This document shows, one piece after another, positions 29,640 through 50,777 of a stretch of DNA of 64,000 nt (position 1 is the first letter of the stretch; each line of letters opens with the position of its first letter). A program made the position numbers and the translations under genes. The stretch comes from an uncultured bacterium (lineage in GTDB: Bacteria; Armatimonadota; UBA5829). The DNA lies in assembly GCA_938074205.1 (NCBI GenBank), contig CALJES010000004.1:124001-188000 (forward strand). Reading direction: 5' to 3'. Below the pieces are notes generated by a model, which worked only from the letters and a program-made list of their open reading frames with translations, had not been told where the DNA came from and searched no databases.

Positions 29640-30138
29640 CTCGTCCCCTCCTGGCATTTCTGAGAACGGACAGAGTTTACAACCGGGCTTTTGGATTGTC
29701 AATAATAAGTCTTTCAATTAGATGGCCAGTTAGCATTGTCATGGGGACCACTTAACACGGTTTACTCGTGAGCCAGGAGTAGCTCGGAAGACTATGTTTA
29801 TGTGTATACGCAAGCTGTTCATCATTATGCGGTAAACTTTGAACATAATTGTCCGTATTGAACAAACTGAGGTTTCAGTTAGAATCTATTATACTGCGAA
29901 CAAATGTGAGTTGTGTGTGAATCAACACGATAATTCAACCACAAATACTATACTAAAACGGTCGCACAATGTTATGTTATTAATCTTTAACTTGTCTATA
30001 GTGGACATTAGATTCTTGAAAACAAGGGCGTATGTGAATTGTGGGTCTTAGTTATGGAATGGATTATTAGGTCGACATTAGTGACCTTCATCGGGTAAGT
30101 GGACTAAAATTTTAACGAAATTGGAGGTCATTAACCGT
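29640..30138. other. AT-rich intergenic region before the HD-GYP gene
   Basis: About 500 bp with no supported gene and clearly richer in A/T (roughly 29760-30120) than its surroundings. Features: a candidate plus-strand promoter TTGAAC (29858-29863), 16 bp, TAGAAT (29880-29885), which would give a leader of about 245 nt; and a possible hairpin around 29911-29944 (TTGTG-TG-TGAAT pairing with ATTCA-AC-CACAA). No known riboswitch pattern was recognised. Short frames here lack ribosome sites. Confidence 0.4.
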
Positions 30139-34012: not shown

Positions 34013-34214
34013 AGTCTTTTTCCTCCTTTGATGTTTTTGTTCAGCTTCCCATCCTTTTGTCCGCCGCAAACTGGCACTACGGATTGGGGGATGCTGGTTC
34101 ATTTTGAATTACCCATTAACCATAACCTGTAAACTCCGGCGCGGTTGCTGGGGTTGTTTTGAGTAGGCCTCTGATCACATCAAACTGGTACGCCATTGTA
34201 GTGTTTAGACCCTA

Positions 34215-34242
34215 TTGATTGGCTCTGGTCTGACAATAATGT
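34215..34242 (+). promoter_or_regulatory. Candidate promoter of the type IV pilus operon
   Basis: TTGATT (34215-34220), 16 bp, TAATGT (34237-34242), 51 bp before the pilM start. Moderate match only. Confidence 0.4.
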
Positions 34243-34292: not shown

Positions 34293-35414
34293 GTGTTGGG
34301 TCTTTTTTTTGCTAAGGAGTCGGTTGTCGGAGTCGATATAGGTTCATCAACTCTGAAGGTTGTCGAGGCGGTCTCCACCAACACCGGATGGGAACTGCTG
34401 GCGGCTGCCGTCGACCGGTGTCCGCCGGACGCAATCAAAGACGGGGTCGTGCGCGACGTCCAGGAGGTAGGCGCAGCGATCCGCAGAATGTTGCGCGAGG
34501 CCGGAATAAAGGCCACCGGCGCTGTGTGTGGTATTTCTGGGTCGCAGGTCATAGTGCGCCAAGTGCAGTTCCCGAAGATGTCAGAAGCCCTACTGCGAAA
34601 GTCGATCAAATACGAAGCGGGCAAGTTCATATCCAGCTCAATTGAAGACAGTGTTGTGGAGTTTGAAATCATCGGCGACGCTGAGGAGCCGGGGCAAATG
34701 AACGTGTGGTTGGTTGCCGCGCCCAGGGAGATGGTGGATAGCAGAGTTGCAGTCCTGGAAGCGGCAGGGCTTGAACCCCTTGCCGTGGATGTTGAGGCGT
34801 TCGCTCTAATACGTTCTATCGTAGAGTTGAGCTCCACCGATAGATTCCTGAATGAGACCGTCGCTCTTGTAGACATGGGTGCCAGCCATACGGATGTGAA
34901 CATCGTCAGCCGCGGAGAGTTTGCCCTCACTCGAAATATCCCAATTGCCGGGGACAGCTTCACGAACGCAATAAAGAACCTTACGGGATGCTCTTTTGAG
35001 GAAGCCGAACAGGCTAAGCTAGAAATGGCGCGGGCGTGCCCGTGGGATGATCAGGATGTGGCGCAGCGCGAAAACCGCAACTGGCGAGCCGTTCAGCCCT
35101 TGATCGACGAGCTCATTCGCGAGATTAAGCGTTCCATCAATTTTTATCACTCCCAGTTTCCCGAAGGCGACACAGGCTCTTTCGTTAATCGCGTCCTGCT
35201 CACTGGCGGCAGTTCGCAGATGGTCGGTATAGACAAGTATGTGGCGGACAAGCTTGGCACTCAAACTGAGATGGCCCGACTTTTTTCTGATACTGCCGTC
35301 TCCGCCAAGGACTTGTCGGCGGAATTAAAGGCGCAACACGAATCTGTGTTAGCTGTAGGTACCGGACTCGCGTTGAAAGAGCTTATTGCTGATTCAAAGC
35401 AGAAGGCGGCTTAG
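34293..35414 (+). CDS. pilM: Type IV pilus assembly ATPase-like protein PilM
   Basis: 373 residues; GTG start with GGGGGG 10 bp upstream. Actin-like fold (PF11104): phosphate-1 motif VVGVDIGSSTLKVVE, VALVDMGASHTDVNI and the adenosine motif RVLLTGGSSQMVGID. PilM forms a cytoplasmic ring bound to the PilN N-terminus. First gene of a pilMNOPQ-pilB-pilT-pilC-sigma operon. Confidence 0.95.
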   Translation: MLGLFFAKESVVGVDIGSSTLKVVEAVSTNTGWELLAAAVDRCPPDAIKDGVVRDVQEVGAAIRRMLREAGIKATGAVCGISGSQVIVRQVQFPKMSEALLRKSIKYEAGKFISSSIEDSVVEFEIIGDAEEPGQMNVWLVAAPREMVDSRVAVLEAAGLEPLAVDVEAFALIRSIVELSSTDRFLNETVALVDMGASHTDVNIVSRGEFALTRNIPIAGDSFTNAIKNLTGCSFEEAEQAKLEMARACPWDDQDVAQRENRNWRAVQPLIDELIREIKRSINFYHSQFPEGDTGSFVNRVLLTGGSSQMVGIDKYVADKLGTQTEMARLFSDTAVSAKDLSAELKAQHESVLAVGTGLALKELIADSKQKAA

Positions 35415-35500: not shown

Positions 35501-36106
35501 ATGCCTTCCATTAATATGATTGCCCCGCGCAGAGCCGAGAAGCAAAAGCTTGAGCGCGATATGCGCAGGGTCGTGGCGGTGATACTGGTTGAATTTATAT
35601 GTGCTATCGCGCTTGGAGGTTGGCTGACTGCGCGTCTGGTGGCGACAAGGGGGCGGATTGCCGATTTGGATGTCCAGCTTGCCAGGATGAGACCCACAGT
35701 GAAACAGATCGAAGACTACGAACGTGCCACAAGACGGCTCCAGCCCAAGATCGATCTGCTAAACGAGGCCAAACAGCGAACTATGCGCTGGCACAGAATA
35801 CTCGACGCACTGACATTAAGCCTTCCGAAGCCCAGCTATCTGACGCGAATCGCAACAAACCAATCAGCCGGGCGCCAAGAGTCTTCACCCACTGTGGCCC
35901 TTACAGGCATTACCATATCGCAAGCCATCATCGGTGAAACGATGCTCCGGCTTTCGTCGGTGCCCGACTTGGCTCAAGTGGATCTGAACTACAGCCAGCC
36001 GACCTCCGTCAATGGTGCACCTGCAATCGAGTTCGAGCTTGGTGCGAAGATGAAAGACGACAAAGATCGGAAAGGAGCGCAAGCTAATGGCCGCGTTCAA
36101 TCTTAA
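35501..36106 (+). CDS. pilN: Type IV pilus inner-membrane protein PilN
   Basis: 201 residues; AAAGGAG precedes the ATG. The cytoplasmic N-terminus PSINMIAPRRAEKQK corresponds to the PilM-binding INLLP-type motif, followed by one membrane helix (VVAVILVEFICAIALGGWL), a coiled coil and a ferredoxin-like periplasmic domain. Partner of PilO. The pilO start overlaps its end by 20 bp. Confidence 0.92.
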   Translation: MPSINMIAPRRAEKQKLERDMRRVVAVILVEFICAIALGGWLTARLVATRGRIADLDVQLARMRPTVKQIEDYERATRRLQPKIDLLNEAKQRTMRWHRILDALTLSLPKPSYLTRIATNQSAGRQESSPTVALTGITISQAIIGETMLRLSSVPDLAQVDLNYSQPTSVNGAPAIEFELGAKMKDDKDRKGAQANGRVQS

Positions 36107-36854
36107 AGCCAGCGCAAGGGCGGTGACAGTGCTCATCGTTATAGCTGTGCTGGTTTTTTTTGCGACGGTGCTCATGTATTTGGGGATGGCTGGCAAGCTC
36201 AAAAGCGCGGTTTCCGAGATGCAAGCCAAGACGAAGCAGGTAGCCGAAAGCCGCAGTGTGGTTGAGAAACTGGAGGCCACCAAACTTGCATACCTCGATG
36301 CCCGCAGCCAAGTGCGCTACCTAGAGACCTCTGTTTCTACCCAGGAGTTCATACCCACGCTGCTCAAGCAGATTGAACACCTTGGCAAATCCGTCAACCT
36401 AAAAGTGTTAGGCGTTCGCCCGTCGCTTGAGGTTCAAAAGAGAGTTGCCAAGAGAAGCATCTCCAGCAGCAAGGAGGCGTCCGAGGGCAATTTGGAAGAA
36501 GCCTCAAAAACCGCAAACGGCAACGAACAAGGTTCGGCTCGCAAATCGCAACCTTACGACGAGCTGCAGATCAGCTTACAGGTAGAGGGCTACTACATGG
36601 ACCTTCTAGACTTCCTGTATCGGTTGACAAGTTTTCCGAAAATAGTGGCGGTGGACGCCGTTGAGATAACGCCGCTTGTCAATCGATTTCAGGCTGCAGG
36701 TTCGCCTAGGCTAAATATGAAGCTGACACTAACGGCTTTCATACTGAAAGACGAAAATAAGTCTGAAAGCAGCGAATCACGCACCGGCTCTAGCACTAGA
36801 TTCGAAACTCCTGAAAAAGCTTCGCTCAGGCAGGCAACGGGGGTGGCTGGATAA
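36087..36854 (+). CDS. pilO: Type IV pilus inner-membrane protein PilO
   Basis: 255 residues. One helix (AVTVLIVIAVLVFFATVLMYLG), a coiled coil (about residues 37-85), then a periplasmic domain with DELQISLQVEGYYMDLLDFLYRLTSFPKIVAVDAV, characteristic of PilO. A low-complexity Ser/Glu linker (residues about 128-155) is inserted. Aligns the inner-membrane complex with the secretin. Last base overlaps pilP. Confidence 0.9.
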   Translation: MAAFNLKASARAVTVLIVIAVLVFFATVLMYLGMAGKLKSAVSEMQAKTKQVAESRSVVEKLEATKLAYLDARSQVRYLETSVSTQEFIPTLLKQIEHLGKSVNLKVLGVRPSLEVQKRVAKRSISSSKEASEGNLEEASKTANGNEQGSARKSQPYDELQISLQVEGYYMDLLDFLYRLTSFPKIVAVDAVEITPLVNRFQAAGSPRLNMKLTLTAFILKDENKSESSESRTGSSTRFETPEKASLRQATGVAG

Positions 36855-37495
36855 TGACGCTTGAACAAAAAAGGGCTATCGGGCTGGCTGTTTTGGGTGT
36901 TGTGGTGGTCGCTAGTGTTGCCTATATTTCGTTTTCTGTTGCATTGCCCAAAACGACAGCCGCGAAAACGGCCAACCAAACCAGCAAGGACCAAGCCCAA
37001 TCTGATAAGCCAACAGAAGATACAGCGGTTGCTTCGGCGGCAGAACTTTCCACAGAGCATCCGCCGCTTCCGCGACGGGATCCCTTCGCGTTCCAACCGC
37101 TTCCTGGTGCACAGTTAGAAACCGCTGAAGCAAGCCAGCCGCGGCGTGTGACCAAGCGCCTTAAATTGGACTTTTCAAATATGTCAAGCCGATTGCCGGC
37201 TATTAATGTTAAGCCTATAAACCCGTTCGTTGCCAATAACCAGAGTTCGCCTTCGGATACGCAGGCTCTGAATCCTGAACCGGAAGAGGAACTTGTGGTC
37301 ACGGGAGTTGTGAGGGGCGAAAGCAACGTGGCCATAGTCAGAATCGGCGCGACAGGGCGGCATGTTGTTCGCGAAGGTCAGGTAATCGACGGACGCTACA
37401 GGGTTGCATCCATAAACACCGATCACGTGGTGTTCATATATAACAACCGGCCCATAGCCATAAAAGTGGGAGGAAATAGGAATGCTGCTAGGTAG
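36854..37495 (+). CDS. pilP: PilP/GspC-like pilus alignment protein
   Basis: 213 residues. N-terminal membrane helix (IGLAVLGVVVVASVAYISFSV), a Thr/Ala/Lys-rich linker, PRRDPFAF and a C-terminal beta domain (ELVVTGVVRGESNVAIVRIGATGRHVVREGQVIDGRYRVASI) like PilP/GspC HR domains, which contact the secretin. Unlike proteobacterial PilP it has a transmembrane anchor rather than a lipobox, closer to GspC. Identified by both domain and position between pilO and pilQ. Confidence 0.82.
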   Translation: MTLEQKRAIGLAVLGVVVVASVAYISFSVALPKTTAAKTANQTSKDQAQSDKPTEDTAVASAAELSTEHPPLPRRDPFAFQPLPGAQLETAEASQPRRVTKRLKLDFSNMSSRLPAINVKPINPFVANNQSSPSDTQALNPEPEEELVVTGVVRGESNVAIVRIGATGRHVVREGQVIDGRYRVASINTDHVVFIYNNRPIAIKVGGNRNAAR

Positions 37496-39956
37496 AACTC
37501 GGGGCAAGTCCTCATTTATTATGTGGTGGGTGCTATGCACGGCTTGTGCATTAATTGTTGCGCCGACGCTCTCATGGTCAGATGCCAACGTCATAACGAG
37601 CGTTAAGGTCGTTAATACACCGGATAAAGTCGTAATCACCGTGCGAGGCGAATCACCGCTCAGGTTCACGCCTCTCATTTCTGCCGCGGGCAAATACTTA
37701 GGTTTTCAGTTTCCCTGCGCGCTTGCAGCAAAAGGCGGCGCAGTTCCCATTAGAAGCGGTGGGATCTACAGCGTAAGGTATTCGAACTTCCAGGCGCGCC
37801 CGCCCATTTCGCGCGTGGTAGTGAATACAACCAAGCATCTAAAATACTCCGCTCGGCGTTCAGATGACGGCAAGGAGATAGAAATCGAGGTTTACAAGTC
37901 CACCTCAGGCACAACATCCTTGCGCTCGGCGGCTGCGGCGGGGCCCTCGTCGGCTAGTAATGTCAATACTCAACCTGCAGTTGCGACGCAGAGGCCGGCT
38001 ACTTCGACAAGCTCAGATTCCGAGCCAATAGAGGCTCAGCCGACTGATGCCACGCAGTCGCCCGCAGATCGGCTCTGGGCTTACAAAGCTATAGCTGAGC
38101 GATCGAGAATGGCGGCACGAACCGCAAACGCAGCCGGCACAACGATTCAGGTCGCCTCTGCCAGTCTAAGCTTGCCTTCATCTTCGGAAATCGCAGCTCA
38201 GCCGCAAACAAGGGTGTTGGGAACTGTTCAATCCACCGGCGATCCAAAACCGATTGAGCCGTCGCAGCAGACGGACTCCGCGGCGCCTACAGATAGGCAA
38301 GCTCCCAAGAGGTTTGCTTTTGCGAATTCCGGCAGCTTGCGAGCCGGCGCGTCGGAGCGGAAGGTTTCTGTCAACTTCCTTGGAGCCGATATAAACGACG
38401 TTCTCAAAGCACTATCGGTGCAAAGCGGCAAGAACATCGTATCCAGCAAGGACGTCACCGGCAACGTCACGGTCAGCCTGTCGAATGTGAGCCTTGAGGA
38501 GGCCCTGGACTACGTAACCAAACTGAGCGGATATACCTACACCAAGGACGGTGACACATACCTGGTCTCTACAAAGGAATCACTTCGGTCTCTCGCGGGG
38601 GAATCGAGCCCGGATGCAAAGACCGAACTGGTTAAGCTCAGTTACGCTAAGGCAGACGACGTCGTCTCGCTGCTCAAATCGCGTTTTCCCGATATAGTGG
38701 TAAGCAAAATCGGAGTGGAGCCGGCGCCCAAGGGTGCTGCTGAACAACCCGGTGCCCAGGGTCCCATAGGACAGAAGCATAACTTGCTAGTCTTATCGGG
38801 TCCGACGGACTCCGTCACGGAAGCCAAAAAGCTCGCTGAGCAGTTCGAGCAGACGCTTAGAGTTCAAGCGATACAGTCGACGCGAGCAACCTACCGCGTT
38901 AAGTTTGCGAGCCCTTCGCAGCTTGCCCAAGCGCTTATGGCGCTAGTTCCCGGCGTCGAGGTCGTCTTTGCGCCGACCAGCGATTTCGAGCTGGTTAAGT
39001 TTAAATCGGCAAAGACATCTCCCGGACAGGCTCCGCAGGTTGAGCGCGAATTCGACACCGCCGGTGGCAAGGGCTCTGGCGATCAAGCTCGAGGAACGAT
39101 CCCCGGGGGCGGTGCGGACCCAACAGGGAAGGGCAGCGGACCGGCCGGACCTGTGACCAATGCTCGCACGATCGTCATAGTAGGCGACGAGCAGTCCGTG
39201 GCGAAGGCACTTGAAATTGCCCAGCAGTTGGACGTCAAAGCGCCGCAGATAAAGATAGACGCCAAGATAAGCAGCATAAATAAGTCCGGGGAGAAAAAGC
39301 TTGGTTTGGAATGGCAGTGGGGAGACTTGGTAGTTCTAGAAGGGTTCACGGACTACGACAAGACCACCGACATGCTCCCAGACGGAACCAACAAACAGAA
39401 CGTCCGGATCTCCCACAAGAAGATGTATCGGCAGCCTTGGGACTTTGCTGCGACGCTTGACGCGCTTGTTACCAGCGGGGACGCTCAGGTATTGGCCTCT
39501 CCGAGCATTGTTTGTCTGGAACGAAACCCCGGCGTATTCTTCGTGGGCGACGAGGTTACCTACGTGCAGAGGGTGGAGACGACACCGACCGGCCAAAACA
39601 TCCTCACGGACACAAAGCGCGTTGGCGTGCAGATGGTTGTCGCAGGCGAGATAAATGACGACGGTTACATCACGCTCTATCTGCATCCGGAGGTAAGCAC
39701 GCTCAAGCTCTCCGTCGAGCAGGGTGTTGCGCTGCCGATAGTGTCGAGCCGATTTACCGACCACGTAGTGCGCGTCAAGAGCGGCCAAACCATTGTTATA
39801 GGCGGCTTAATCCGAAGCGACGAAGTAGAGGAAATGCGCAAGGTGCCGTTCCTAGGCGATCTGCCCCTCTTTGGTCAGTTGTTTAGGCACACGCAGAAGA
39901 CTAAGGACGAGACCGAGGTAGTGATGTTCATAACGGCCACGATCCTTCAGGACTAG
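37482..39956 (+). CDS. pilQ: Type IV pilus secretin PilQ
   Basis: 824 residues. Signal peptide about 1-31; AMIN domain (VVITVRGESPLRFTPLISAAGKY, residues about 40-130); low-complexity Ala/Thr/Ser region; STN/N0 domain (KVSVNFLGADINDVLKALSVQSGKNIV); N1 domains (LVKLSYAKADDVVSLLKSRF); Gly-rich insertion near residues 525-550; secretin core from about 590, ending VRVKSGQTIVIGGLIRSDEVE and VPFLGDLPLFGQLFRHTQKT, diagnostic of secretins. Forms the outer-membrane pore for the pilus, evidence for a diderm envelope. Start overlaps pilP by 14 bp. Confidence 0.96.
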   Translation: MLLGRTRGKSSFIMWWVLCTACALIVAPTLSWSDANVITSVKVVNTPDKVVITVRGESPLRFTPLISAAGKYLGFQFPCALAAKGGAVPIRSGGIYSVRYSNFQARPPISRVVVNTTKHLKYSARRSDDGKEIEIEVYKSTSGTTSLRSAAAAGPSSASNVNTQPAVATQRPATSTSSDSEPIEAQPTDATQSPADRLWAYKAIAERSRMAARTANAAGTTIQVASASLSLPSSSEIAAQPQTRVLGTVQSTGDPKPIEPSQQTDSAAPTDRQAPKRFAFANSGSLRAGASERKVSVNFLGADINDVLKALSVQSGKNIVSSKDVTGNVTVSLSNVSLEEALDYVTKLSGYTYTKDGDTYLVSTKESLRSLAGESSPDAKTELVKLSYAKADDVVSLLKSRFPDIVVSKIGVEPAPKGAAEQPGAQGPIGQKHNLLVLSGPTDSVTEAKKLAEQFEQTLRVQAIQSTRATYRVKFASPSQLAQALMALVPGVEVVFAPTSDFELVKFKSAKTSPGQAPQVEREFDTAGGKGSGDQARGTIPGGGADPTGKGSGPAGPVTNARTIVIVGDEQSVAKALEIAQQLDVKAPQIKIDAKISSINKSGEKKLGLEWQWGDLVVLEGFTDYDKTTDMLPDGTNKQNVRISHKKMYRQPWDFAATLDALVTSGDAQVLASPSIVCLERNPGVFFVGDEVTYVQRVETTPTGQNILTDTKRVGVQMVVAGEINDDGYITLYLHPEVSTLKLSVEQGVALPIVSSRFTDHVVRVKSGQTIVIGGLIRSDEVEEMRKVPFLGDLPLFGQLFRHTQKTKDETEVVMFITATILQD

Positions 39957-40066: not shown

Positions 40067-40130
40067 TGGAAGGTTAGCCTGAGAAGCTCAGAGCCATGCC
40101 GAATGAACGAACCGGCCTTCGAGGGAAGTG

Positions 40131-41864
40131 ATGCAACAAACCGAACCGATCGGTGAGATATTCGTAAGAAAAGGACTCATAACGCGGGACCAACTCAGAC
40201 AAGCTCTTGAAAGGCAGAAGCTGCTCAAGAGACAGGAGAGTCTGGGGGATGTTTTGGTGAGCATGGGATTAATTACCGAGAGAGACCGCGTTATGTGCCT
40301 GGGAGAACAGTGGGGAGTGCCATTTGTCGAGCTCGGAGACATCGAGGTCGATAGCTCTGTTGTGAAGCTCGTTCCTCAGAGCACTGCCAGAAAGCTCAAA
40401 GTTGTCCCCATCGGCAGGAAGAACGGCAAGCTTACGCTTGCCATGAAAAATCCCCTCGATATATTTGCCATCGATGAAGTCAGGATGGTCTCAGGCTCTG
40501 ACATCGAGCCAACAATCGCACTAGAGGAAGACATACTCAATGCTATCAGCCGAATCTATCGTGCAGAAGCCAACGTCTCCGAACAAGTCTCCGAGGTCAT
40601 CAAGGAGTTTGATACCGAACAGATCGATATCACCAGCGTCGAGGGCTACGCTGAGGACGAAGACAATATCTCGATCGAGCACCTGCGCGAGCTCTCCGAG
40701 GAAGCGCCTGTTATCAAGCTGGCAAACCTGATTATCGGACGAGCCGTGTCTGATGGGGCAAGCGACATACACATCGAACCTGCTCGGGATTGTGTGCGCG
40801 TTCGGCTCAGAATCGACGGAATCATGCACGAGGTTATGCAAATACCCAAGAAGGTGCAACCCTCCCTCATCTCCCGATTCAAAATCATGGCCGAAATGGA
40901 CATCGCCACCAAGCGCTCGCCCCAGGACGGTCGAATAAGCGCTGTGATAGACGGAAAGCCTTACGACTTCCGCGTTTCCACTCTGCCTTCGGTATTTGGA
41001 GAAAAGGTGGTTCTGAGAATCCTGGATAAAAGCGCAATATGCATCGGGCTTAACAAACTGGGGCTTCTGCCTGAAACCCTGGAGAAGTTCGAAAGCCTTA
41101 TAGCTCGCACCTACGGAATAATACTTGTCACCGGACCGACCGGCAGTGGCAAGTCCACAACTCTTTATTCGGTTCTTTCGAAGCTCAACTCCGGCGAGAA
41201 GAACATACTCACGATAGAGGACCCTGTCGAGTATGAGCTTCCCGGACTAACGCAAGTTCAGATCAACCCGCGAGCAGGGCTCACCTTTGCCACTGGGCTT
41301 AGGACTATGCTTCGTCAGGACCCGGACATCATAATGGTTGGCGAGATTCGCGATGCAGAGACGGCTACGATCGCTACCGAGGCTGCGCTAACGGGCCACC
41401 TAGTGCTCTCGACACTGCATACCAACGATGCTCCCGGTGCGCTCACCAGAATGATCGACATGGGCATCGAGCCGTTCCTGATCGCCTCCAGCGTGATAGG
41501 CGTCATGGCTCAGAGACTTGTAAGAGTGGTCTGTCCCAAGTGCAGAGAACAGTATCAACCTCCGCGCGATGCTGTTAAGCGACTCGGGATTGAAATTGAT
41601 AGCGATAGTAGGGTCACCTTTTTCCGTGGTCGGGGTTGCGACCATTGTCGCGGCACCGGCTACAAGGGCCGCGTCGGAGTATACGAACTTATGATAATGA
41701 ACGATCAAATACGCGACCTGGTGCTTCGCAAGGCGTCGGCGCACGTGATAAAGGAAGCCGCGGTGGAGTCGGGAATGAAAACGCTTCGTGACGACGCTAT
41801 TGCGAAAATACTTCTCGGTCAGACAACCCTTGAAGAATGCTTGCGAGTGATCTACGCGGGTTAA
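40131..41864 (+). CDS. pilB: Type IV pilus extension ATPase PilB (GspE family)
   Basis: 577 residues from ATG 40131 (GTG 40128 possible), GAGGG just upstream. N-terminal MshEN-type domain (GEIFVRKGLITRDQLRQAL ... LGDVLVSMGLITERDRV), which in MshE/PilB homologues binds c-di-GMP. ATPase core has Walker A GPTGSGKSTT, Asp box TIEDPVEY, Walker B QDPDIIMVGEIRD, His box STLHTND and a tetracysteine zinc site (CPKCREQY ... CDHCRGTGY). Powers pilus polymerisation. Confidence 0.97.
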   Translation: MQQTEPIGEIFVRKGLITRDQLRQALERQKLLKRQESLGDVLVSMGLITERDRVMCLGEQWGVPFVELGDIEVDSSVVKLVPQSTARKLKVVPIGRKNGKLTLAMKNPLDIFAIDEVRMVSGSDIEPTIALEEDILNAISRIYRAEANVSEQVSEVIKEFDTEQIDITSVEGYAEDEDNISIEHLRELSEEAPVIKLANLIIGRAVSDGASDIHIEPARDCVRVRLRIDGIMHEVMQIPKKVQPSLISRFKIMAEMDIATKRSPQDGRISAVIDGKPYDFRVSTLPSVFGEKVVLRILDKSAICIGLNKLGLLPETLEKFESLIARTYGIILVTGPTGSGKSTTLYSVLSKLNSGEKNILTIEDPVEYELPGLTQVQINPRAGLTFATGLRTMLRQDPDIIMVGEIRDAETATIATEAALTGHLVLSTLHTNDAPGALTRMIDMGIEPFLIASSVIGVMAQRLVRVVCPKCREQYQPPRDAVKRLGIEIDSDSRVTFFRGRGCDHCRGTGYKGRVGVYELMIMNDQIRDLVLRKASAHVIKEAAVESGMKTLRDDAIAKILLGQTTLEECLRVIYAG

Positions 41865-41873
41865 GGAGGGAAT

Positions 41874-43001
41874 ATGCGAGGCGAACTGGCAGTTGATGAT
41901 TTCAGCGATTTCTTGGCGGAATCGAACGCGCCCTCAGTGGAGGAAGTGCACTTGGACGATCTACTGCGCGAGGCTACGGAGCGTGGAGCCTCGGACCTTC
42001 ATCTTACCGTCGGCCTGCCGCCTGTAATCCGCGTCGATGGTTCCCTAACCCATCTGAGATATCAGCCGCTTTCTCCCAGTGATACTCAGAGGTTGGTCTA
42101 CGACATACTCACCACCGATCAAGTCCAGCACTTCGAAACCGTTCACGAACTGGACTTCTCATACGGAGTGCGCGGAGTAGGCAGGTTTAGGGTGAACGTC
42201 TACAAGCAGCGTGGAAGCGTCGGAGCAGCGCTTCGGAGCATACCGGACCGCATTCCAACTTTCGAACAACTCAATCTGCCGCCTGTTCTGCGCGAGTTGA
42301 GCCGCAGGACCAGCGGCCTGATACTCGTAACAGGACCCACCGGTAGCGGCAAGTCTACCACAATCGCCTGCATGATAGATACGATCAATTCCGAAAGACC
42401 CGTGCACATAATGACGATGGAAGACCCCATAGAATATCTCCACCGGCACAAGAGGGGCATGGTGAATCAGCGCGAATTGGGCACGGACACCGATTCCTTC
42501 GCCAACGCGTTGAGGGCTGTCTTAAGGGAAGACCCGGACGTCATACTCATTGGCGAGATGCGCGACCTTGAGACCATCCAGGCAGCATTGACTCTCGCCG
42601 AAACGGGGCACTTGGTGTTTGGCACACTCCACACCCGCAATGCTCCCCAGACTATAGACCGAGTAATCGACGTATTTCCTCCGCATCAGCAGGAGCAGAT
42701 CAGGGTACAGCTTTCTAACACGCTCGAGGCAGTGATAGCCCAGCAGCTTATGCCACGAATAGGTGGCGGACGAATAGCGGCTTTAGAGATATTGGTTGCC
42801 ACCTCTGCCGTGCGCAACTTGATCCGAGAAGGCAAATCTCACCAAATCTATAGCGCTATCGAGACCGGCGCCCAGTACGGCATGCAGACGATGGATAAGT
42901 CTCTTGCAGACCTTTATCGAAACGGCATCATCACGCTAGAAGAAGCGGAAGCTCGCTCGATAGATAGGGAAAATCTCAAACGCTTCCTACAGGGAGGCTG
43001 A
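41874..43001 (+). CDS. pilT: Type IV pilus retraction ATPase PilT
   Basis: 375 residues; AAGGAGGG before ATG 41874. PAS-like N-terminal domain (LLREATERGASDLHLTVGLPPVIRVDG), Walker A GPTGSGKSTT, TMEDPIEYLH, Walker B EDPDVILIGEMRD, GTLHTRNAPQTIDR with the His box, and the conserved AIRNLIREGK-type motif (SAVRNLIREGKSHQI). Drives pilus retraction. Directly follows pilB (9 bp). Confidence 0.97.
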   Translation: MRGELAVDDFSDFLAESNAPSVEEVHLDDLLREATERGASDLHLTVGLPPVIRVDGSLTHLRYQPLSPSDTQRLVYDILTTDQVQHFETVHELDFSYGVRGVGRFRVNVYKQRGSVGAALRSIPDRIPTFEQLNLPPVLRELSRRTSGLILVTGPTGSGKSTTIACMIDTINSERPVHIMTMEDPIEYLHRHKRGMVNQRELGTDTDSFANALRAVLREDPDVILIGEMRDLETIQAALTLAETGHLVFGTLHTRNAPQTIDRVIDVFPPHQQEQIRVQLSNTLEAVIAQQLMPRIGGGRIAALEILVATSAVRNLIREGKSHQIYSAIETGAQYGMQTMDKSLADLYRNGIITLEEAEARSIDRENLKRFLQGG

Positions 43002-43052: not shown

Positions 43053-44270
43053 GTGCCAACGTTTGCCTATACAGCAATAGATACCAACGGTAAGACTGTA
43101 AAAGGTCGCACGGATGCGGAAAGCGAAAATATCCTGATTTCCAAGCTTCACGCACAGAACCTTCACGTGCTTTCGATCAATGAAGAGAAAAGCGAAGTCG
43201 CGAAAGCCGGAGGCAGAGTGACTGCGCCGGGAAGGAAGGTCAAGCTTAAGAACCTGGTTATCTTCAGTCGGCAGTTCGCAACAATGATAGATGCCGGCGT
43301 CGCAATCGTCCGATGTCTGGACATACTCGAAAACCAGACCAAGGACCCGGTGCTCAAGAACGTCATCGCACAGTGCAAGAAGGACGTCAAGGGCGGAATG
43401 AGCCTTACAGATGCATTCGCCAAACACCCCAACGTGTTCTCGCGCCTCTATGTGAACATGGTAAAGGCGGCGGAGACGGGCGGAATTCTCGATAAGATAA
43501 TGGATCGTCTGGCCACATTCCTCGAAACCGAACAGGAAGTTCGCTCCAAGATCAAGTCGGCAATGATATACCCGGTACTTGTTTTGATCTTTGCGTTGTG
43601 TATGGTGGTTGCGCTTTTCATGTTCGTATTGCCGAAGTTTAAGGAGCTCTTCGATTCGTTGGATGTGGAGCTACCTGCAGCTACGCGTGCACTGTTCGGC
43701 ATGAGCGAGATGATGCGCTCCTATTGGTATGTGGGACTTGTCGGGATTGTAGCGGGTGCGATCGGCTACAAGTGGTATAGGAACACCGAGCAGGGCGCTT
43801 GGCAAATCGACATGCTCAAGCTCAAGTTTCCTGTTATAGGGGAGCTGGTGCAGAAGATGGCGATCTCGCGCTTTGCTAGGACATTCGCCACACTGATACA
43901 TAGCGGCGTGCCCATGATGAGATCGCTGGAAATTGTCGGCGAGACGGCAGGCAACCGAGTGATAGCGCACGCTGTCGAGAACGCTCGCAACGCTATAAGG
44001 GAGGGGCAGAAAATCAGCGCTCCGCTGGCTCAGAGCGGACTGTTTCCCGGCATGGTCACGCACATGATCGACGTGGGCGAGGAAACGGGTAGGCTTTCTG
44101 ATATGCTTGCAAAGGTCTCGGATTTCTACGATCAGGAAGTCGAGAATGCCGTAAAGGCGCTAACGTCGCTGATAGAGCCGTGTTTGATAGTCGTAATGGG
44201 CGGCATTGTCGGGTTTATAGCTGTTTCGATTATGGCGCCGATATTCAAGCTCATCAGCGCAGTAGGCTAG
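43053..44270 (+). CDS. pilC: Type IV pilus platform protein PilC (GspF family)
   Basis: 405 residues; GTG start with GGGAGG upstream. Two GspF domains (about residues 70-192 and 275-396) with LVIFSRQFATMIDAGVAIVRCLDI and FARTFATLIHSGVPMMRSLEIV, three main membrane helices (YPVLVLIFALCMVVALFMFVLP; YVGLVGIVAGAIGY; CLIVVMGGIVGFIAVSIMAP). Inner-membrane platform on which PilB and PilT act. Confidence 0.96.
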   Translation: MPTFAYTAIDTNGKTVKGRTDAESENILISKLHAQNLHVLSINEEKSEVAKAGGRVTAPGRKVKLKNLVIFSRQFATMIDAGVAIVRCLDILENQTKDPVLKNVIAQCKKDVKGGMSLTDAFAKHPNVFSRLYVNMVKAAETGGILDKIMDRLATFLETEQEVRSKIKSAMIYPVLVLIFALCMVVALFMFVLPKFKELFDSLDVELPAATRALFGMSEMMRSYWYVGLVGIVAGAIGYKWYRNTEQGAWQIDMLKLKFPVIGELVQKMAISRFARTFATLIHSGVPMMRSLEIVGETAGNRVIAHAVENARNAIREGQKISAPLAQSGLFPGMVTHMIDVGEETGRLSDMLAKVSDFYDQEVENAVKALTSLIEPCLIVVMGGIVGFIAVSIMAPIFKLISAVG

Positions 44271-44356: not shown

Positions 44357-45700
44357 ATGCGACTTATAAAGGGCAGAAAACTGACAGAAGAAGAAATCCA
44401 AAACCTCATCTCTGAGTACGCGGCCACGAAGGATCCTGCGATTCGTGACCAAATCGTTATGCAATACACTAACCTTGTAGAAAGCGTTGCGCGCCGATTT
44501 ATGGGGGCTTGCGAATCTGCTGAGGACCTAGTGCAAGAAGGATTCGTCGGTCTGATTAGGTCTGTGGATAAGTACGATCCCGATATGGGCGTCAAGTTCT
44601 CCACGTATGCAACGCACTTCATAATCGGGGAAATCAAGCACTACTTGCGCGACAAGGGCAAGATGATAAAGGAGCCGGCTTGGCTCCAAGAGCTCAACCA
44701 GAGGATGACCCGGGTTATGGAGGCGCTGAGCCAGGCTCTTGGACGCGCCCCTACCGAAAAAGAAATCGCTCAAGTTATGCAAATGTCGGAACGCAGCGTC
44801 AGGGAAATTCTGATGACCAGGGAAGTCTTCAAGGTTGCATCCCTTGACGGAGAACGCGAGGACGCTTCCGGCCCTAAGGAATCAGAGAAAATAAAAGATG
44901 AAAAGCTGATCGCCTTCCAATTGCCTGTTGAGGACAAGATCGTGTTGGAAACAGCATTGCAGAGGCTTAAGGATATAGAACAGCGGGTTATACACATGCA
45001 CTTTTATAAAGGCCTCAACCAAACTGAGATCGCCAAGCGACTGAGCATAAGCTGCAACTACGTCTCCCATATAATTCGCAACGGAACGAAGAAGCTGAGA
45101 AAGATACTGATCACCGATGAGGTGCGGGACGTGCAAATACAGCGAGCCCTTGTATCCAAACGTGCAAGGGGTCGCCTGACAGCTGAGCCTGAGAGTGTTT
45201 TGGATCCTACTACGCGCGTTTACAGCCGTGAGTACTTCCTTCAACGACTGGACGAGGAGCTTAGCCGGGCTTTTCGTGAACGATATCTGGTTGCATTGCT
45301 GCTGATAGACGTGCACCTGCCGGAGAATATGGATCGATATCTGCGTTTGATGCGCAAGGACGACGTGCTGGCTGAAGTTGGGCAGACGATCCGCAGAAAT
45401 GTAAGGAAAATGGATTTACTTGGCCGAGTTGGGGATCACTGCTTCGCGCTGATGTTGCCTCATACGTTCGAACACGCATCTAGGGTTGCTGCGCGAGTTG
45501 GCAACCTAGTGGGCTCCGTTGCGGTCGATCCGGGCAGGGGAGCCTCGCAGTTAACTTGCTCCGCGCGGATCGGGATAGCAAGGTACCCTGAAGATGCAAT
45601 GGACAGACGAGGACTCTTGGAAAAAGCTGCATCGCAGATCGAGATAGAGCTGGATGCGCTGATGGCAGAGCCGCTGCAGCAGTTCGGCCAGGCTGCGTAG
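44357..45700 (+). CDS. Sigma-70 family factor fused to a degenerate GGDEF domain
   Basis: 447 residues from ATG 44357 (GGAGAGG upstream); the frame upstream overlaps pilC and is rejected. Residues about 30-100 are sigma region 2 (AEDLVQEGFVGLIRSVDKYD, FSTYATHFIIGEIKHYLRD), 115-160 region 3, 195-252 region 4 with helix-turn-helix NQTEIAKRLSISCNYVSHII; closest in style to the SigB/SigF/SigG type. Residues 283-428 look like a GGDEF domain (DPTTRVYSREYFLQRLDEEL, VALLLIDVHL, LGRVGDHCFALMLPHT, SARIGIARYPEDA). The active-site GGDEF reads GDHCF, so cyclase activity is not expected; it may bind a nucleotide or a protein. Last gene of the pilus operon, 86 bp after pilC. Confidence 0.85.
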   Translation: MRLIKGRKLTEEEIQNLISEYAATKDPAIRDQIVMQYTNLVESVARRFMGACESAEDLVQEGFVGLIRSVDKYDPDMGVKFSTYATHFIIGEIKHYLRDKGKMIKEPAWLQELNQRMTRVMEALSQALGRAPTEKEIAQVMQMSERSVREILMTREVFKVASLDGEREDASGPKESEKIKDEKLIAFQLPVEDKIVLETALQRLKDIEQRVIHMHFYKGLNQTEIAKRLSISCNYVSHIIRNGTKKLRKILITDEVRDVQIQRALVSKRARGRLTAEPESVLDPTTRVYSREYFLQRLDEELSRAFRERYLVALLLIDVHLPENMDRYLRLMRKDDVLAEVGQTIRRNVRKMDLLGRVGDHCFALMLPHTFEHASRVAARVGNLVGSVAVDPGRGASQLTCSARIGIARYPEDAMDRRGLLEKAASQIEIELDALMAEPLQQFGQAA

Positions 45701-45907: not shown

Positions 45908-45971
45908 AAGACACCGTGCAAGATTTAGTATTCCCCGCGACGACTTGCTGCCTGCGCCAATTTGTATTCGG

Positions 45972-47333
45972 ATGGGAAGTGAAATCATAACAGACAACTG
46001 CACAGGCGGGAATTTCACGGCCAAGTCGGCGGCAATAAGCGCTGAGGTTTCACCTATTTGCCTCGGCGATACTTCAATTTCCACGCCTTCTCTACGTGCC
46101 AACCTGTCGTGGACCTTGTTGGGAAACTTGGTATATGCCGGCTGTCAGTGGTCTATGCTGATGGTAATTGCAAAGCTGGGCACTCCCCAAATGGTTGGGC
46201 GTTTTTCGCTCGGTCTAGCTATCACAGCGCCCGTGATAACTTTGGCTTCCTGTCAGCTCAGAATTGTACAAGCGACCGATGCAAGGCGCGATTACAGCTT
46301 CTCAGACTACTTCACGGCTCGCCTGCTTTGCCTTGCCGCTGCGATTTTTGTGATACTGGCGGTGACTCTGTTAACTCAGCGCGATCCCGCGGTTATTGCT
46401 GTAGTGATGGCCGTGGCAGCTGCTAAGGCTTTCGAATCCGTCAGCGACATTTACTATGGTTCAATGCAACAATATGAGCGCATGGATCTCATATCCAAGT
46501 CGAAGATAATCAAGGGCTTGTTTTCTTTAGGTGCGTTGGCAGCTGCTGTTTATCTTACCCGTGATATATTTTTGGGGTCGCTGTTACTTGCCGCAACATG
46601 GGCCGCGGTATTGATCGGCTATGACGCTCTGAATAGAACGCGGATTGTGAAGCAGTTCGCGCAAGAAGAGTCTCACCTGATGCTGTTTCGAAACTTACGG
46701 GCGGCGGTGGCGCTGATATGGCTCGCTTTGCCGCTAGGAATATCGGGCTTACTTAATTCGCTGCGCACTAACATTCCTAGGTACTACGTGGTCGCCAGCC
46801 AGGGGGAAGCTCAGCTTGGGATATTTTCTGCCGTTACCTACGTTATGGTAGCTATTTTAACGGTAATATACGGGATCGGAGAATGCAGTGCGCCCCGGCT
46901 TGGAAAATACTACGTGCAGAACAAGCACAGGGCTTTTCTATGGCTGCTCGTCAAGCTTGCTGCGTTGGCTGTAGCTGTAGGATTGATTGGAATACTGGTA
47001 AGTTTGCTTTGGGGAGGTCGACTACTCTCGATCTTGTTTACGCCGGAGTATGCGAAAGCTGCCGACGTGTTGGTGTTGGTGATGATCGCCTCAGCAGCTA
47101 CTAGTGTAGCAGCAATCACGAACTATGCGATGACGGCTACTCGAGAGATTGCCGTCCAACTACCGATACTCGCTTCGGTATGTGCAGCAACGGCGTTAGT
47201 TTGTAGCATTGCAGTGCCTCGCCTGGGATTAAGCGGCGCGGCGGTGGGGCTAGTCGCCGGTGCAGTCGTGCACATGGTGTTGGGGTCGGCAGTAGTGGCT
47301 AGAGGACTATGGCGGTCAATGCGAAGCCGCTAG
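45972..47333 (+). CDS. Polysaccharide flippase (Wzx/MATE-like, PST family)
   Basis: About 453 residues; the start is uncertain because none of ATG 45972 or upstream TTG 45945 has a good ribosome site. Twelve or so hydrophobic helices, beginning SLRANLSWTLLGNLVYAGCQWSMLMVIAKLG, typical of polysaccharide biosynthesis export proteins (PF01943). It should flip lipid-linked repeat units across the inner membrane for the downstream Wzy-like polymerase. First gene of the glycan operon. Confidence 0.85.
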   Translation: MGSEIITDNCTGGNFTAKSAAISAEVSPICLGDTSISTPSLRANLSWTLLGNLVYAGCQWSMLMVIAKLGTPQMVGRFSLGLAITAPVITLASCQLRIVQATDARRDYSFSDYFTARLLCLAAAIFVILAVTLLTQRDPAVIAVVMAVAAAKAFESVSDIYYGSMQQYERMDLISKSKIIKGLFSLGALAAAVYLTRDIFLGSLLLAATWAAVLIGYDALNRTRIVKQFAQEESHLMLFRNLRAAVALIWLALPLGISGLLNSLRTNIPRYYVVASQGEAQLGIFSAVTYVMVAILTVIYGIGECSAPRLGKYYVQNKHRAFLWLLVKLAALAVAVGLIGILVSLLWGGRLLSILFTPEYAKAADVLVLVMIASAATSVAAITNYAMTATREIAVQLPILASVCAATALVCSIAVPRLGLSGAAVGLVAGAVVHMVLGSAVVARGLWRSMRSR

Positions 47334-47367
47334 ATTCAGGCAAGAAGGTGTGGGAAGGGAATCTGAT

Positions 47368-48141
47368 TTGGCAGACCAACTGACCGAATCGCAGACCTGG
47401 GACGATGTATGGCGAACGTTCCGGGGGGTGGATTCCCGCCGGTTGGCTGTGCGCGAGCTGGACAGGTATCTTGCTCGCGTATTGGCCCTGGTACCGCCGT
47501 CCGGTAGTGTGATAGAGTTAGGAGGCGCGCCGGGACGCATAATACAGCGTATGCACAGATTGCGGCCAGATCTAAAATACGACTGCCTAGATTTCAGCCC
47601 CGAAGGATTGAGTAAGGCTAGCCAGCTCTTCGCCGCATACGGAATAGAGGGCGAATTGATCGATGGTGACGTGATGACCTGCGACCGCAAGCTGGGGTGT
47701 TACGATCTGGCCTGTTCGCATGGACTTGTTGAGCATTTTCAGGATATAGGCGCCGTCGTCGCCCGACATTTTGAATTCGTTAGGCCAGGTGGGTTAGTTT
47801 CTATATTGTTGCCGAACTATGCCGTGTTTCCGGTGGCAGGGTTAGTGAGACTATTTTGTAAGCGCACAATGCAAACACACAACCTTGAGTGCATGAATCC
47901 GCGGGTAATCGAAAGCGCTGTTTCGTCCTGCGGCGGTATTGTTCTGTCAGCCGGGTTTACAGGGGCTGCAATACTGCCCTGCTCAGGGACTAACAAAAGC
48001 TTGGGCGGACGAGTTTATGGCTTGGCGGCAAGGTCGTGGAACCTGCTTAATTCACTCGTAGGGCTCGTGAGCAAGGACAGGCTGGTTGCGCGTTTCTGGC
48101 GCCACCAAATCTACGTAATTGCCCGAAAACAAGGTGACTGA
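47368..48141 (+). CDS. SAM-dependent class I methyltransferase
   Basis: 257 residues from TTG 47368, with GGAAGGGA 7 bp upstream (GTG 47350 possible). SAM motif I GSVIELGGAPGRIIQRM, then DCLDFSPEGLSKA, GELIDGDVMTCD, YDLACSHGLVEHFQD and RPGGLVSILLPNYAVFP. The GLVEHF motif resembles sugar- or lipid-modifying methyltransferases in glycan clusters. Probably methylates a sugar of the repeat unit. Its stop is one base before the polymerase ATG. Confidence 0.82.
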   Translation: MADQLTESQTWDDVWRTFRGVDSRRLAVRELDRYLARVLALVPPSGSVIELGGAPGRIIQRMHRLRPDLKYDCLDFSPEGLSKASQLFAAYGIEGELIDGDVMTCDRKLGCYDLACSHGLVEHFQDIGAVVARHFEFVRPGGLVSILLPNYAVFPVAGLVRLFCKRTMQTHNLECMNPRVIESAVSSCGGIVLSAGFTGAAILPCSGTNKSLGGRVYGLAARSWNLLNSLVGLVSKDRLVARFWRHQIYVIARKQGD

Positions 48142-48142
48142 A

Positions 48143-49630
48143 ATGGGCTCCACTGCCATATTCACTTTGCACCCACGGGCCAAAGCTTACCAGGTTTTTC
48201 TGTTTGGGCAGGGTGTAATTCTTATCGTCCTGCTTGCGCTAGAATTCGCTTTTCAGGTGGACGCCCTCGATTATGAGGGGCTAGTCCGACCAATGTGCTT
48301 GGTGTTCTCAGTCATTAGCCTATGGTGCATGTGGGCTTGGTACTGTGTAAGGGGCTCGTTTTTCGACGTATACAGTCTGTTTTTCCTGTCAGCAGTCGCG
48401 TTCAACGGTGGCCAGCTTTTCTTGGAAGTGCTCGGAATAAATGAAGGTGGCTTGCTGAACAATCGCTTTCCTGCGCAGGTGTTGGTGTCCACGATCCACC
48501 TGGTTTTGACTTGCCTCGCAGCCATGCACCTGGGCGCGCTGTTAGGCGCAAAACCGGCCGCGCAGTCTAGATCGACTGAGCTCAGTCCAGACCAGGCTCT
48601 GTTGAACGCCAAAGCCGTGCGGTGGGTAGGGTGGGCCCTTATGGCTATATCTGCACTGCCTACTGTTATTTATTTGCGGCAGAACTTGTCGACAGTGCTA
48701 GCCAAGGGCTATGCCGCCCTTTACTTCCAGGGTATACCGGTTGGGATTGAGTCGGTGTGGCGCGTGCTGTCGGTATTCTTCGTGCCGGGAGTGCTCTTTC
48801 TGCTTGCAGGCAGCAAGGGGATACGCCTGAATACAGCTATTGCTGCTGCAGCCATGATTTTATATGCTCTAGCAAACCTTCTTATTGGCGACCGCGGAGG
48901 TGCAGGATACGCGCTCGTCGCATTTGTATGGTTGTGGCACAGGCATATAAAACGTTTTTCGCCGGTCGGAATAATCGCTGTCTTCCTTGCGATAGCTGTT
49001 ATCCTGCCCATAGTGGGAATAACGCGGTCGCTGAGCGGCGACCAGCGGTTGTCGTCAGACGTTGTGAGCATGCTTTTCTCTGTGGAAAACCCTATCATTG
49101 CCCTGGTAAGAGAACTTGGCACCACAATGCGCACAGTCGCCTATACACTTACCTTTGTTCCCAGTGAGCGAGGCTTCGATTATGGCCTAGGCTACCTTAG
49201 GGCAACGATGACTATGGTGCCCTCGCTCTACTGGCTGACCAGCGAAACCTATTCGAGCTGGCTTGTCTGGACGGTGGCGCCGGGATTCGCGAGAATGGGT
49301 GGCGGATTGGGGTTTTCGTTTATTGCGGAAGCTTACGCCAATTTCGACTGGCTCGGAAGTGTGGTTTTTACGTTGCTTTTGGGATACGCGCTGTCGCGCC
49401 TTGTCGCTTGGGTAGATTATTGCAAAGACCCAGCACGCTTGGCCCTTGCGGCGACATTCGTGGCTTTCACATTGCAATATGCTAGGGGCGAATCTGCCGG
49501 GGAGATAGGAAGGCTTTTCTGGGCAGTCCTCGTACCGTATTTGGTAGCGAAGCGCATAGTAATCTTGGCGCGGTGTTCTGTAAATGACAGTCGTGTGTGT
49601 GACGGAAAAACGATACTACCGAACGCCTGA
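48143..49630 (+). CDS. O-antigen polymerase-like membrane protein (Wzy type)
   Basis: 495 residues from ATG 48143 with AAGGTG 6 bp upstream. About twelve hydrophobic segments and a long extracytoplasmic loop (ERGFDYGLGYLRATMTMVPSLYW ... TYSSW), as in oligosaccharide repeat-unit polymerases. GDRGGAGYALVAFVW and ITRSLSGDQRL are common in this family. Joins flipped repeat units in the periplasm. Position between flippase and glycosyltransferases supports the call. Overlaps the next gene by 47 bp. Confidence 0.8.
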   Translation: MGSTAIFTLHPRAKAYQVFLFGQGVILIVLLALEFAFQVDALDYEGLVRPMCLVFSVISLWCMWAWYCVRGSFFDVYSLFFLSAVAFNGGQLFLEVLGINEGGLLNNRFPAQVLVSTIHLVLTCLAAMHLGALLGAKPAAQSRSTELSPDQALLNAKAVRWVGWALMAISALPTVIYLRQNLSTVLAKGYAALYFQGIPVGIESVWRVLSVFFVPGVLFLLAGSKGIRLNTAIAAAAMILYALANLLIGDRGGAGYALVAFVWLWHRHIKRFSPVGIIAVFLAIAVILPIVGITRSLSGDQRLSSDVVSMLFSVENPIIALVRELGTTMRTVAYTLTFVPSERGFDYGLGYLRATMTMVPSLYWLTSETYSSWLVWTVAPGFARMGGGLGFSFIAEAYANFDWLGSVVFTLLLGYALSRLVAWVDYCKDPARLALAATFVAFTLQYARGESAGEIGRLFWAVLVPYLVAKRIVILARCSVNDSRVCDGKTILPNA

Positions 49631-50777
49631 CGGCTGCATCTGGACTTCAACAGGCAGAGGTTATACCTACTGGTGCATATACCTTGGTGCTTTCGAGCAC
49701 GTAAAGGTAGTGGCCCGTGTGCTGGATGTGGAAACATGTGATGGAAACTGGCTGCGAGCTGACGGAGAATCAGTGTCTTTTTGTCCGGTGCCTTATTATC
49801 TGGGGCCTCAGCAGCTCGTATCGAGTCTAGGAAGGATCAAATGGGCATTGGCTAACGCAATACAGCCGGGAGATGCGGTGGTCTTGTATGCGGGCGGACC
49901 CATGTCTTCTCTTGCGGCGCCGCTGTTGTGGCGTTTGAACTACCCCTATGGCGTGTACGTGGGCGGAGATCCGTATGATACGTTCGCACCCCGCGCGTTC
50001 AAACATCCGCTTAGGCCTTTCTTACGGTGGCATTTCACCCTTCAGCTTAAGAAGCAGTGCCGCAGGGCTTGTGCTGCGCAGTATGTGACGGAGTACACCT
50101 TGCAACGCAGATATCCTTGCCCAGGCTTAAGCGTTTCCGCAAGCGGGGTGGAACTCCCCGATGATGCGCTGGCTGAAAAACCAAGGCAATACAGCGCCGT
50201 CCAGGGACCGACGAAGATAGTTACCGTGGGCACTTTCGATGTTATGTATAAGGCTCCGGACATTCTGATAGGTGCCGTCGCAGCTTGCGTAAAGAACGGG
50301 TTAGATCTGGAGCTGACATTCATAGGAGACGGTGTGCACCGGCCCGCTATGGAGGCGCTTGCCGACGAGCAGGGAATCGCAGATCGAACCAGGTTTCTAG
50401 GAAGGCTGCCTTCTGGGCAGGCTGTATTCGCTGAGCTGGATAAAGCAGACCTGTTTGTGTTGCCTTCCTACTGCGAGGGACTGCCGCGGGCGATGATCGA
50501 GGCGATGGCACGGGCTCTGCCTTGCATCGGCACGGGCGTGGGTGGCATTCCAGAGCTCCTGCCACCGGAAGATATTGTTCCGCCGGGGAACCTGCAGGCC
50601 CTGGCTGACAAAATCGCAGAGGTCGCGGGCTCCGAGCAGCGTATGAATGCAATGTCCGCAAGAAACCTGGAGAAGGCGAGAAATTACACCGACAGCGTCA
50701 TCAGCAAGCGGCGGCTGCAGTTCTACACCTACCTCAAGGATAAAACCCAGGAATGGATTGCCAGCGCCCACGGCTAA
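49584..50777 (+). CDS. GT4-family glycosyltransferase
   Basis: 397 residues. Rossmann C-terminal domain with KIVTVGTFDVMYKAPDILIGA, RTRFLGRLPSGQAVFAELDKADLFVLPSYCEGLPRAMIEAMARALPCIGTGVGGIPELL in successive motifs, the EX7E-type nucleotide-sugar site of GT-B enzymes. Adds a sugar to the lipid-linked repeat unit at the cytoplasmic face. The start lies within the polymerase gene; no strong ribosome site, so translational coupling is likely. Confidence 0.88.
   Translation: MTVVCVTEKRYYRTPDGCIWTSTGRGYTYWCIYLGAFEHVKVVARVLDVETCDGNWLRADGESVSFCPVPYYLGPQQLVSSLGRIKWALANAIQPGDAVVLYAGGPMSSLAAPLLWRLNYPYGVYVGGDPYDTFAPRAFKHPLRPFLRWHFTLQLKKQCRRACAAQYVTEYTLQRRYPCPGLSVSASGVELPDDALAEKPRQYSAVQGPTKIVTVGTFDVMYKAPDILIGAVAACVKNGLDLELTFIGDGVHRPAMEALADEQGIADRTRFLGRLPSGQAVFAELDKADLFVLPSYCEGLPRAMIEAMARALPCIGTGVGGIPELLPPEDIVPPGNLQALADKIAEVAGSEQRMNAMSARNLEKARNYTDSVISKRRLQFYTYLKDKTQEWIASAHG

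Follow-up and report, generated by a model that had tools for sequence, protein, structure and literature searches.

A single open reading frame at the end of a type IV pilus operon encodes a sigma-70-family factor joined to a degenerate GGDEF domain. Fusions of this kind make up a single clade that is conserved throughout the phylum Armatimonadota. The fusion is probably a dedicated, autoregulated, c-di-GMP-sensing sigma-70-family factor of these bacteria for type IV pili and exopolysaccharide, as judged from the conserved residues and promoter-like sites described below. A wider reading has about an even chance of being correct: a new transcription switch in which the sigma factor is its own second-messenger receptor, c-di-GMP-paired GGDEF domains set its activity, an Ala-Ala degron of its own is present, and a small regulon (own gene, pilus machine and exopolysaccharide export) is served in many lineages of one phylum.

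The fusion gene and its distribution

The window, i.e. the whole stretch of 64,000 nucleotides that was analyzed, belongs to a genome of the Armatimonadota of 3.02 Mb in 19 contigs (G000). The fusion gene (44357-45700, + strand) is a single ORF of 447 amino acids without an internal stop. A profile search with the 447-aa protein returned four Pfam domains, all of which exceeded the curated cut-offs. These were sigma region 2 (PF04542 Sigma70_r2, E 1.5e-20; residues 34-101, 44456-44659, +), sigma region 3 (PF04539 Sigma70_r3, E 2.6e-10; residues 112-156, 44690-44824, +), sigma region 4 (PF04545 Sigma70_r4, E 6.1e-14; residues 200-249, 44954-45103, +) and the degenerate GGDEF domain (PF00990, E 1.1e-20, 74.5 bits against a cut-off of 23.8; residues 281-426, 45197-45634, +), which was also recovered in structure models. 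An earlier note on this DNA had described sigma regions 2-4 and a GGDEF-like domain with the signature GDHCF in one frame, placed at the end of the pil operon; all of this was confirmed, with the signature at residues 359-363 (45431-45445, +) and the gene following pilC. In the AlphaFold2 model, a long helix (residues 233-271, 45053-45169, +) connects sigma region 4 with the GGDEF domain.

The sigma part belongs to the sigma-70 family (TIGR02937, 103.1 bits against a cut-off of 42.9; regions 2, 3 and 4 present). Its best family match was the SigB/SigF/SigG subfamily TIGR02980, at 183.7 bits below the cut-off of 234.35, and the FliA/WhiG subfamily TIGR02479 was likewise not reached (117.7 bits, cut-off 189.6). 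A true SigB/F/G paralogue in the window's genome (L339) scored 297.8 bits with TIGR02980.

The distribution of the fusion was analyzed in 61 genomes, comprising the source genome and 60 relatives. The full-length fusion was found in 44 of the 61 Armatimonadota genomes and was absent from 17 (G006, G007, G010, G012, G023-G025, G028, G035, G040, G042, G046, G049, G050, G053, G055 and G056), two of which are incomplete (G023, 80%; G025, 69%). A scan of named genomes contributed 80 further loci, the best 80 of 550 relatives. By label, these best 80 are Armatimonadota or its subgroups, unassigned bacteria, one member of the Abditibacteriales (L220) and two Actinomycetota (L223 and L225); the last two are apparently identical to two genome records that were placed in the Armatimonadota. 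After removal of repeats, the 44 fusions and the best 80 of 550 relatives gave at least 105 distinct fusion proteins. One of these 105 is cut by a contig end (L219), leaving 104 complete members. In a tree of the sigma part, all 105 fusions (best 80 of 550 included) stood opposite eight SigB/F/G-like paralogues, with a branch support of 100/100.

The pil operon

The fusion gene is the last gene in the order pilMNOPQ-pilB-pilT-pilC. All of these genes are located on the + strand: pilM (34293-35414; PF11104, E 3.3e-58), pilN (35501-36106; PF05137), pilO (36087-36854; PF04350), a pilP-like gene assigned by PF11356 T2SSC and operon position (36854-37495), the secretin gene pilQ (37482-39956; PF00263), pilB for the extension ATPase (40128-41864; PF00437), pilT (41874-43001; PF00437) and pilC (43053-44270; PF00482). 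PilB carries an MshEN domain (PF05157, E 1.4e-22), a known c-di-GMP-binding domain (PMC11731258), and is predicted from this domain to be a second c-di-GMP receptor in the pil operon; the first residues of both motif copies differ from the published consensus when compared by eye.

Among the fusion genes of the combined set (44 plus best 80 of 550), 102 had sufficient upstream DNA for analysis, the DNA being too short in the other three. Directly behind pilC were 64 of these 102; the remaining 38, a few of them perhaps owing to contig-end cuts, were located elsewhere. Co-occurrence of the fusion with pili in general was unusable as a measure. Since PilT homologues were present in 61 of 61 genomes, the occurrence of the fusion does not follow that of pili; many PilM_2 matches looked FtsA-like (split matches, by eye). 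Directly behind the fusion gene of the window lies a surface polysaccharide cluster (45945-50777) with a flippase, a methyltransferase, a Wzy-type polymerase and a glycosyltransferase. A scan for promoters and terminators behind the fusion gene gave results at chance level.

Promoter-like sites and their reader

A sigma28-like promoter, CTATTGAT-N14-CAATAAT, is located 52 nt before pilM (34212-34240, +) and is proposed as a target of the fusion sigma. It was the best match in the window and is conserved in relatives, where the boxes read CTACAGTT or CTCAAGTT, 14 nt, and CGATAAT. The pair resembles the flagellar consensus TAAA / GCCGATAA given in PMC8325347. The promoter matrix was built from 15 pilM sites chosen by eye from 20 upstream regions; the regions of G016, G020, G022, G026 and G027 were not used. 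The window's pilM site, itself in the 15-site training set, scored highest in the 64-kb window (17.5; next 12.9). A relaxed exact pattern had three matches in the window's genome, at pilM, at wza and inside a long ORF, and 13 matches over six genomes against 2 for the reversed pattern.

Where the fusion gene stands away from pilC, the same type of site was often found in front of it. Within 250 nt upstream, a site above the 1% background level preceded 17 of the 38 fusion genes off pilC and 1 of the 64 behind it (102 genes from the 44 fusions and the best 80 of 550 relatives); 21 of the 38 standalone genes had no site above the threshold. In a cultured relative, labelled Chthonomonas calidirosea (L168), the motif starts 163 nt upstream of the fusion gene. 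The occurrence of the operon's promoter type before fusion genes away from the operon would be a mark of autoregulation.

The second recurrent target is a Poly_export/SLBB gene of the wza type, which was first encountered in a one-mismatch pattern search of five genomes. Its orthologues carried the site in 16 of 17 genomes with the fusion (14 above the 0.1% level and 2 above the 1% level, with G021 below; one of the 16, in G004, is the discovery site itself). The site was absent from both testable genomes without the fusion (G007, 8.7; G023, 1.2; threshold 11.95). In the window's genome, the wza-type gene is followed by a Wzc-like ATPase, as the CbiA/ParA matches were read, and an EpsH-type exosortase (L381:5548-7182).

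It is unlikely that another sigma factor, i.e. the SigB/F/G paralogue or an unseen FliA, reads the motif, with the fusion as a mere target or in another role. In favor of this are the resemblance of the motif to the flagellar consensus, the FliG gene in the window and the strict motif in five fusion-less genomes (G028, G035, G042, G046 and G055), which held 8 of its 24 matches, some of them before genes for secreted-looking or membrane-looking proteins. Because of these five genomes, a like promoter is presumably read there by another sigma factor. Against it, the site precedes the fusion gene where that gene is away from the pil operon, and the wza sites follow the fusion in the genomes just compared. 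Moreover, the paralogue has different fixed residues in regions 2.4 and 4.2 (fusion H87, H95, A108, N234 and Y235; M/H in the paralogue at the family-specific N234/Y235), and G023 has a GGDEF-less homologue yet neither the fusion nor the site.

Several further matches were recorded. CTNNAGTT-N14-CGATAAT occurs in the fusion-less genomes G042, G028 and G055 (L292, L309, L293, L310 and L294) before genes that by eye are outer-membrane-like and caspase-like. In the fusion-bearing G037 (L295), the strict motif lies 42 nt before a gene judged by eye to be CheA-like, a possible chemosensory target. The FliG gene of the window (60193-61236, - strand) exceeded the NCBIfam equivalog cut-off; no other flagellar genes were recognised by eye beside it, out to the contig end.

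A large regulon was rejected: matches with one mismatch were about as numerous as in the control in four of five genomes (motif/control 8/11, 8/9, 6/4 and 4/3; 14/5 in G011). Prepilin genes as the main regulon were rejected as well, only 2 of 30 upstream regions being above the 1% motif threshold. The 3-Mb genome G000 contained 48 scattered prepilin-type (N-methylation) matches, and many of the 30 upstream regions showed sigma70-type boxes by eye. The recurring predicted sites are confined to pilM, wza and standalone fusion genes.

The GGDEF-derived domain

None of the 105 fusions (44 plus best 80 of 550 relatives) retained the GG(D/E)EF signature of active diguanylate cyclases, and the assumption of an active cyclase was rejected. 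The metal-binding Asp was retained in 10 of the 44 fusions, and the active-site letters varied freely (GDHCF, GETSF, QDDVF, NDHQI, ESHQF and others); the GDHCF of the window is a dead active-site signature by sequence comparison.

The I-site was conserved. By alignment and structure match, RKMD (residues 350-353, 45404-45415, +) corresponds to the primary RxxD with R359 and D362 of PleD, and R304 (45266-45268, +) and R380 (45494-45496, +) correspond to PleD R313 and R390, which we take to be the secondary I-site arginines. All four residues, R304, R350, D353 and R380, were present in 100 of the 105 fusions (best 80 of 550 included), so that primary RxxD and accessory arginines expected of an I-site receptor occur together in nearly the whole family; the exceptions were L045, L049, L218, L230 and the contig-cut L219. 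In an alignment of 57 domains, whose other members are 20-70% identical to that of the window, R304, R350, D353, P368 and R380 were the sole invariant residues; E300/E301 and R297, near the I-site, were also almost fixed.

Control GGDEF domains were taken from the loci returned by searches and from 40 places hand-picked from one search list; 74 were extracted, and the 68 with their signature letters inside the aligned columns were kept. The four-residue I-site was found in 42 of the 44 fusions and in 23 of these 68 intact-motif domains of relatives. The control value is close to the product of published frequencies, according to which 57% of cyclases have RxxD and 64% of these also have the secondary arginine (PMC4215984). 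A second arginine, named as necessary beyond RxxD in PMC3838380, is present in the fusion. Selection has kept what aligns as the full PleD-type I-site, i.e. the primary RxxD and both extra arginines.

A fold search with the whole model returned mainly sigma factors, and the GGDEF domain was for this reason predicted alone. The isolated C-terminal domain adopted a GGDEF fold (pLDDT 90.6, pTM 0.85) and was matched to tDGC (4urs; VIA Z 19.7, rmsd 2.3 over 149 residues) and PleD (2v0n; Z 18.8, rmsd 2.2 over 148 residues), residues 10-161 of the model corresponding to PleD 288-440. The structural offset maps R304, R350, D353 and R380 onto PleD 313, 359, 362 and about 390. A C-terminal fold unrelated to GGDEF, which the earlier note had named as a possible refutation, was hence not obtained. 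The full-length model reached a pTM of 0.42, so the arrangement of the domains is not predicted by it, and its confidence fell to about 57-66 over residues 261-280.

Since the active site is dead and the I-site is kept, the domain is most likely a c-di-GMP receptor rather than a cyclase. The simplest reading would be a PopA-like receptor for c-di-GMP. The built-in GGDEF-derived sensor tied to type IV pili, as proposed in the earlier note, was strengthened for c-di-GMP: the enzymatic site is gone, the I-site is conserved, and the sigma28-like promoter would connect the fusion with the pil operon in which it is encoded.

It is distinctly improbable that the GGDEF remnant is a scaffold only, serving dimerisation or protein docking (e.g. 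of a sigma factor held at the pilus base) and binding no c-di-GMP. Many degenerate GGDEF domains act through protein contacts, and the nearly fixed E300/E301 and R297 near the I-site could form an interface. The invariant residues are, however, exactly the c-di-GMP contacts of PleD, and neither the ordinary GGDEF domains of the relatives nor published cyclases keep this set at a comparable frequency (see the control and PMC4215984 above).

It is very unlikely that the domain senses GTP or (p)ppGpp in the former active site rather than c-di-GMP in the I-site. According to their entry titles, solved structures of PleD (9g85/9g86) contain c-di-GMP along with ppGpp or pppGpp, but in the fusion family none of the active-site positions is conserved and the metal-binding Asp is mostly lost, and the part of the original proposal that allowed for another nucleotide at this site was dropped. 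An artefact of sequencing, assembly or gene calling that joined two genes, including the frameshift or missed stop raised in the earlier note, has a negligible probability, as the same full-length fusion recurs as one clade in 44 of 61 genomes and in at least 105 distinct proteins from independently assembled genomes (best 80 of 550 relatives included).

The Ala-Ala C-terminus

The fusion of the window ends with Ala-Ala (45692-45697, +), a candidate ClpXP degron by sequence comparison. In the ssrA degron, the decisive element is an Ala-Ala at the C-terminus, and similar ends direct other proteins to ClpXP (PMC7652416). This feature of ClpXP substrates was found in 76 of the 104 complete fusions, including that of the window, and was absent from 28 (44 plus best 80 of 550 relatives). 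Within the same neighbourhoods, Ala-Ala ends occurred in 31 of 43 fusions, 4 of 5 PilM proteins and 6 of 532 other ORFs, at least two of the six looking like cut-off PilM. The model confidence of the fusion tail was low (about 55). The Ala-Ala end suggests regulated proteolysis of the fusion.

PilM often ended in Ala-Ala as well (8 of 12 complete PilM proteins of the relatives and, in addition, that of the window with -KQKAA), and may also be a ClpXP substrate. Such ends were never found in PilN, PilO, PilP, PilQ, PilB, PilT or PilC of the relatives' neighbourhoods.

Genomic context of c-di-GMP signalling

Among the 31 genomes searched, G007, G010 and G024 had no GGDEF match at all, and all three are without the fusion. 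In G031-G060, the median number of strong GGDEF matches was 8 in genomes with the fusion (n=21) versus 2 in those without (n=9; Mann-Whitney p 1e-4).

The earlier note had also cited an HD-GYP gene 4 kb upstream as support for a link to c-di-GMP. An HD-GYP-type gene, encoding a candidate c-di-GMP phosphodiesterase that ends with -RKAA, does exist (30121-31341, +; PF13487), about 13 kb before the fusion gene and 3 kb before pilM. By BLAST, a homologue was near the fusion in only 2 of 43 relatives' neighbourhoods, most of which reach at most 9 kb to each side. With this distance and occurrence, the gene lends the c-di-GMP link little weight.

Proposed mechanism

In the mechanism proposed for the c-di-GMP-sensing sigma factor, c-di-GMP would bind to the I-site as an intercalated dimer, as in PleD and tDGC, and would either pair two GGDEF domains or clamp one. 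The long helix of residues 233-271 may relay the state of the GGDEF domain to sigma region 4, which would change the amount of free sigma reaching RNA polymerase, through activity or stability. Active sigma would direct transcription of its own gene, giving positive feedback, as well as of the genes for the pilus machine and of the export operon, and ClpXP-type turnover via the Ala-Ala tail would limit the sigma factor. The fusion would be a counterpart of WhiG-RsiG in which the partner that senses c-di-GMP is part of the sigma chain. Because the putative targets form a surface and matrix programme, we lean slightly towards c-di-GMP favoring sigma activity.

Comparison with known systems

According to a 2021 paper (PMC8325347), no sigma/anti-sigma complex other than WhiG-RsiG was known to be a target of c-di-GMP. 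In the literature searched, mostly outside subscription journals, neither a description of a sigma-GGDEF fusion nor a paper on GGDEF and sigma in Armatimonadetes was found. The parts are known, namely I-site receptors and the RsiG-mediated control of a sigma factor by c-di-GMP; to our knowledge, their union in one chain is new. If correct, a second, independent route would place RNA polymerase under c-di-GMP, via another fold and in another phylum, and would again act on promoters of the flagellar type and on genes for type IV pili. The Armatimonadota would gain a concrete, testable regulatory circuit with predicted promoters and residues.

The sigma part of the fusion is closest to SigB/SigF/SigG (TIGR02980) by family match but remains below the cut-off and has other fixed DNA-contact residues. 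With PleD and tDGC (2v0n, 4urs), the GGDEF-derived domain shares the fold and the I-site residues; in these enzymes, c-di-GMP bridges two GGDEF domains (PMC4215984). PleD and tDGC are active cyclases with product inhibition, whereas the catalytic residues of the fusion are lost. PopA of Caulobacter has in common with the fusion a dead active site and an RxxD I-site that serves as c-di-GMP receptor, a role that is predicted for the fusion (PMC12564702). PopA is, as described there, a response regulator and PleD paralogue that acts on another protein as the ClpXP adaptor for CtrA; the domain of the fusion is joined to the sigma factor, and its possible link to ClpXP is the Ala-Ala end of the same chain.

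In WhiG-RsiG, as in the proposed system, a sigma-70-family factor is under the control of c-di-GMP and type IV pilus genes are among the targets, the latter in Rubrobacter (PMC8325347). The promoters are of the flagellar type in both, with TAAA / GCCGATAA for WhiG-RsiG (PMC8325347) and CTAAAG / C(G/A)ATAAT for the fusion. In WhiG-RsiG, c-di-GMP silences the sigma factor. It is bound there by a separate helical anti-sigma factor, RsiG, which is marked by the helix E(X)3S(X)2R(X)3(Q/H)(X)3D and described as limited to Actinobacteria (PMC8325347), whereas the fusion, from a different phylum, carries its predicted receptor, a GGDEF domain, within the sigma polypeptide itself.
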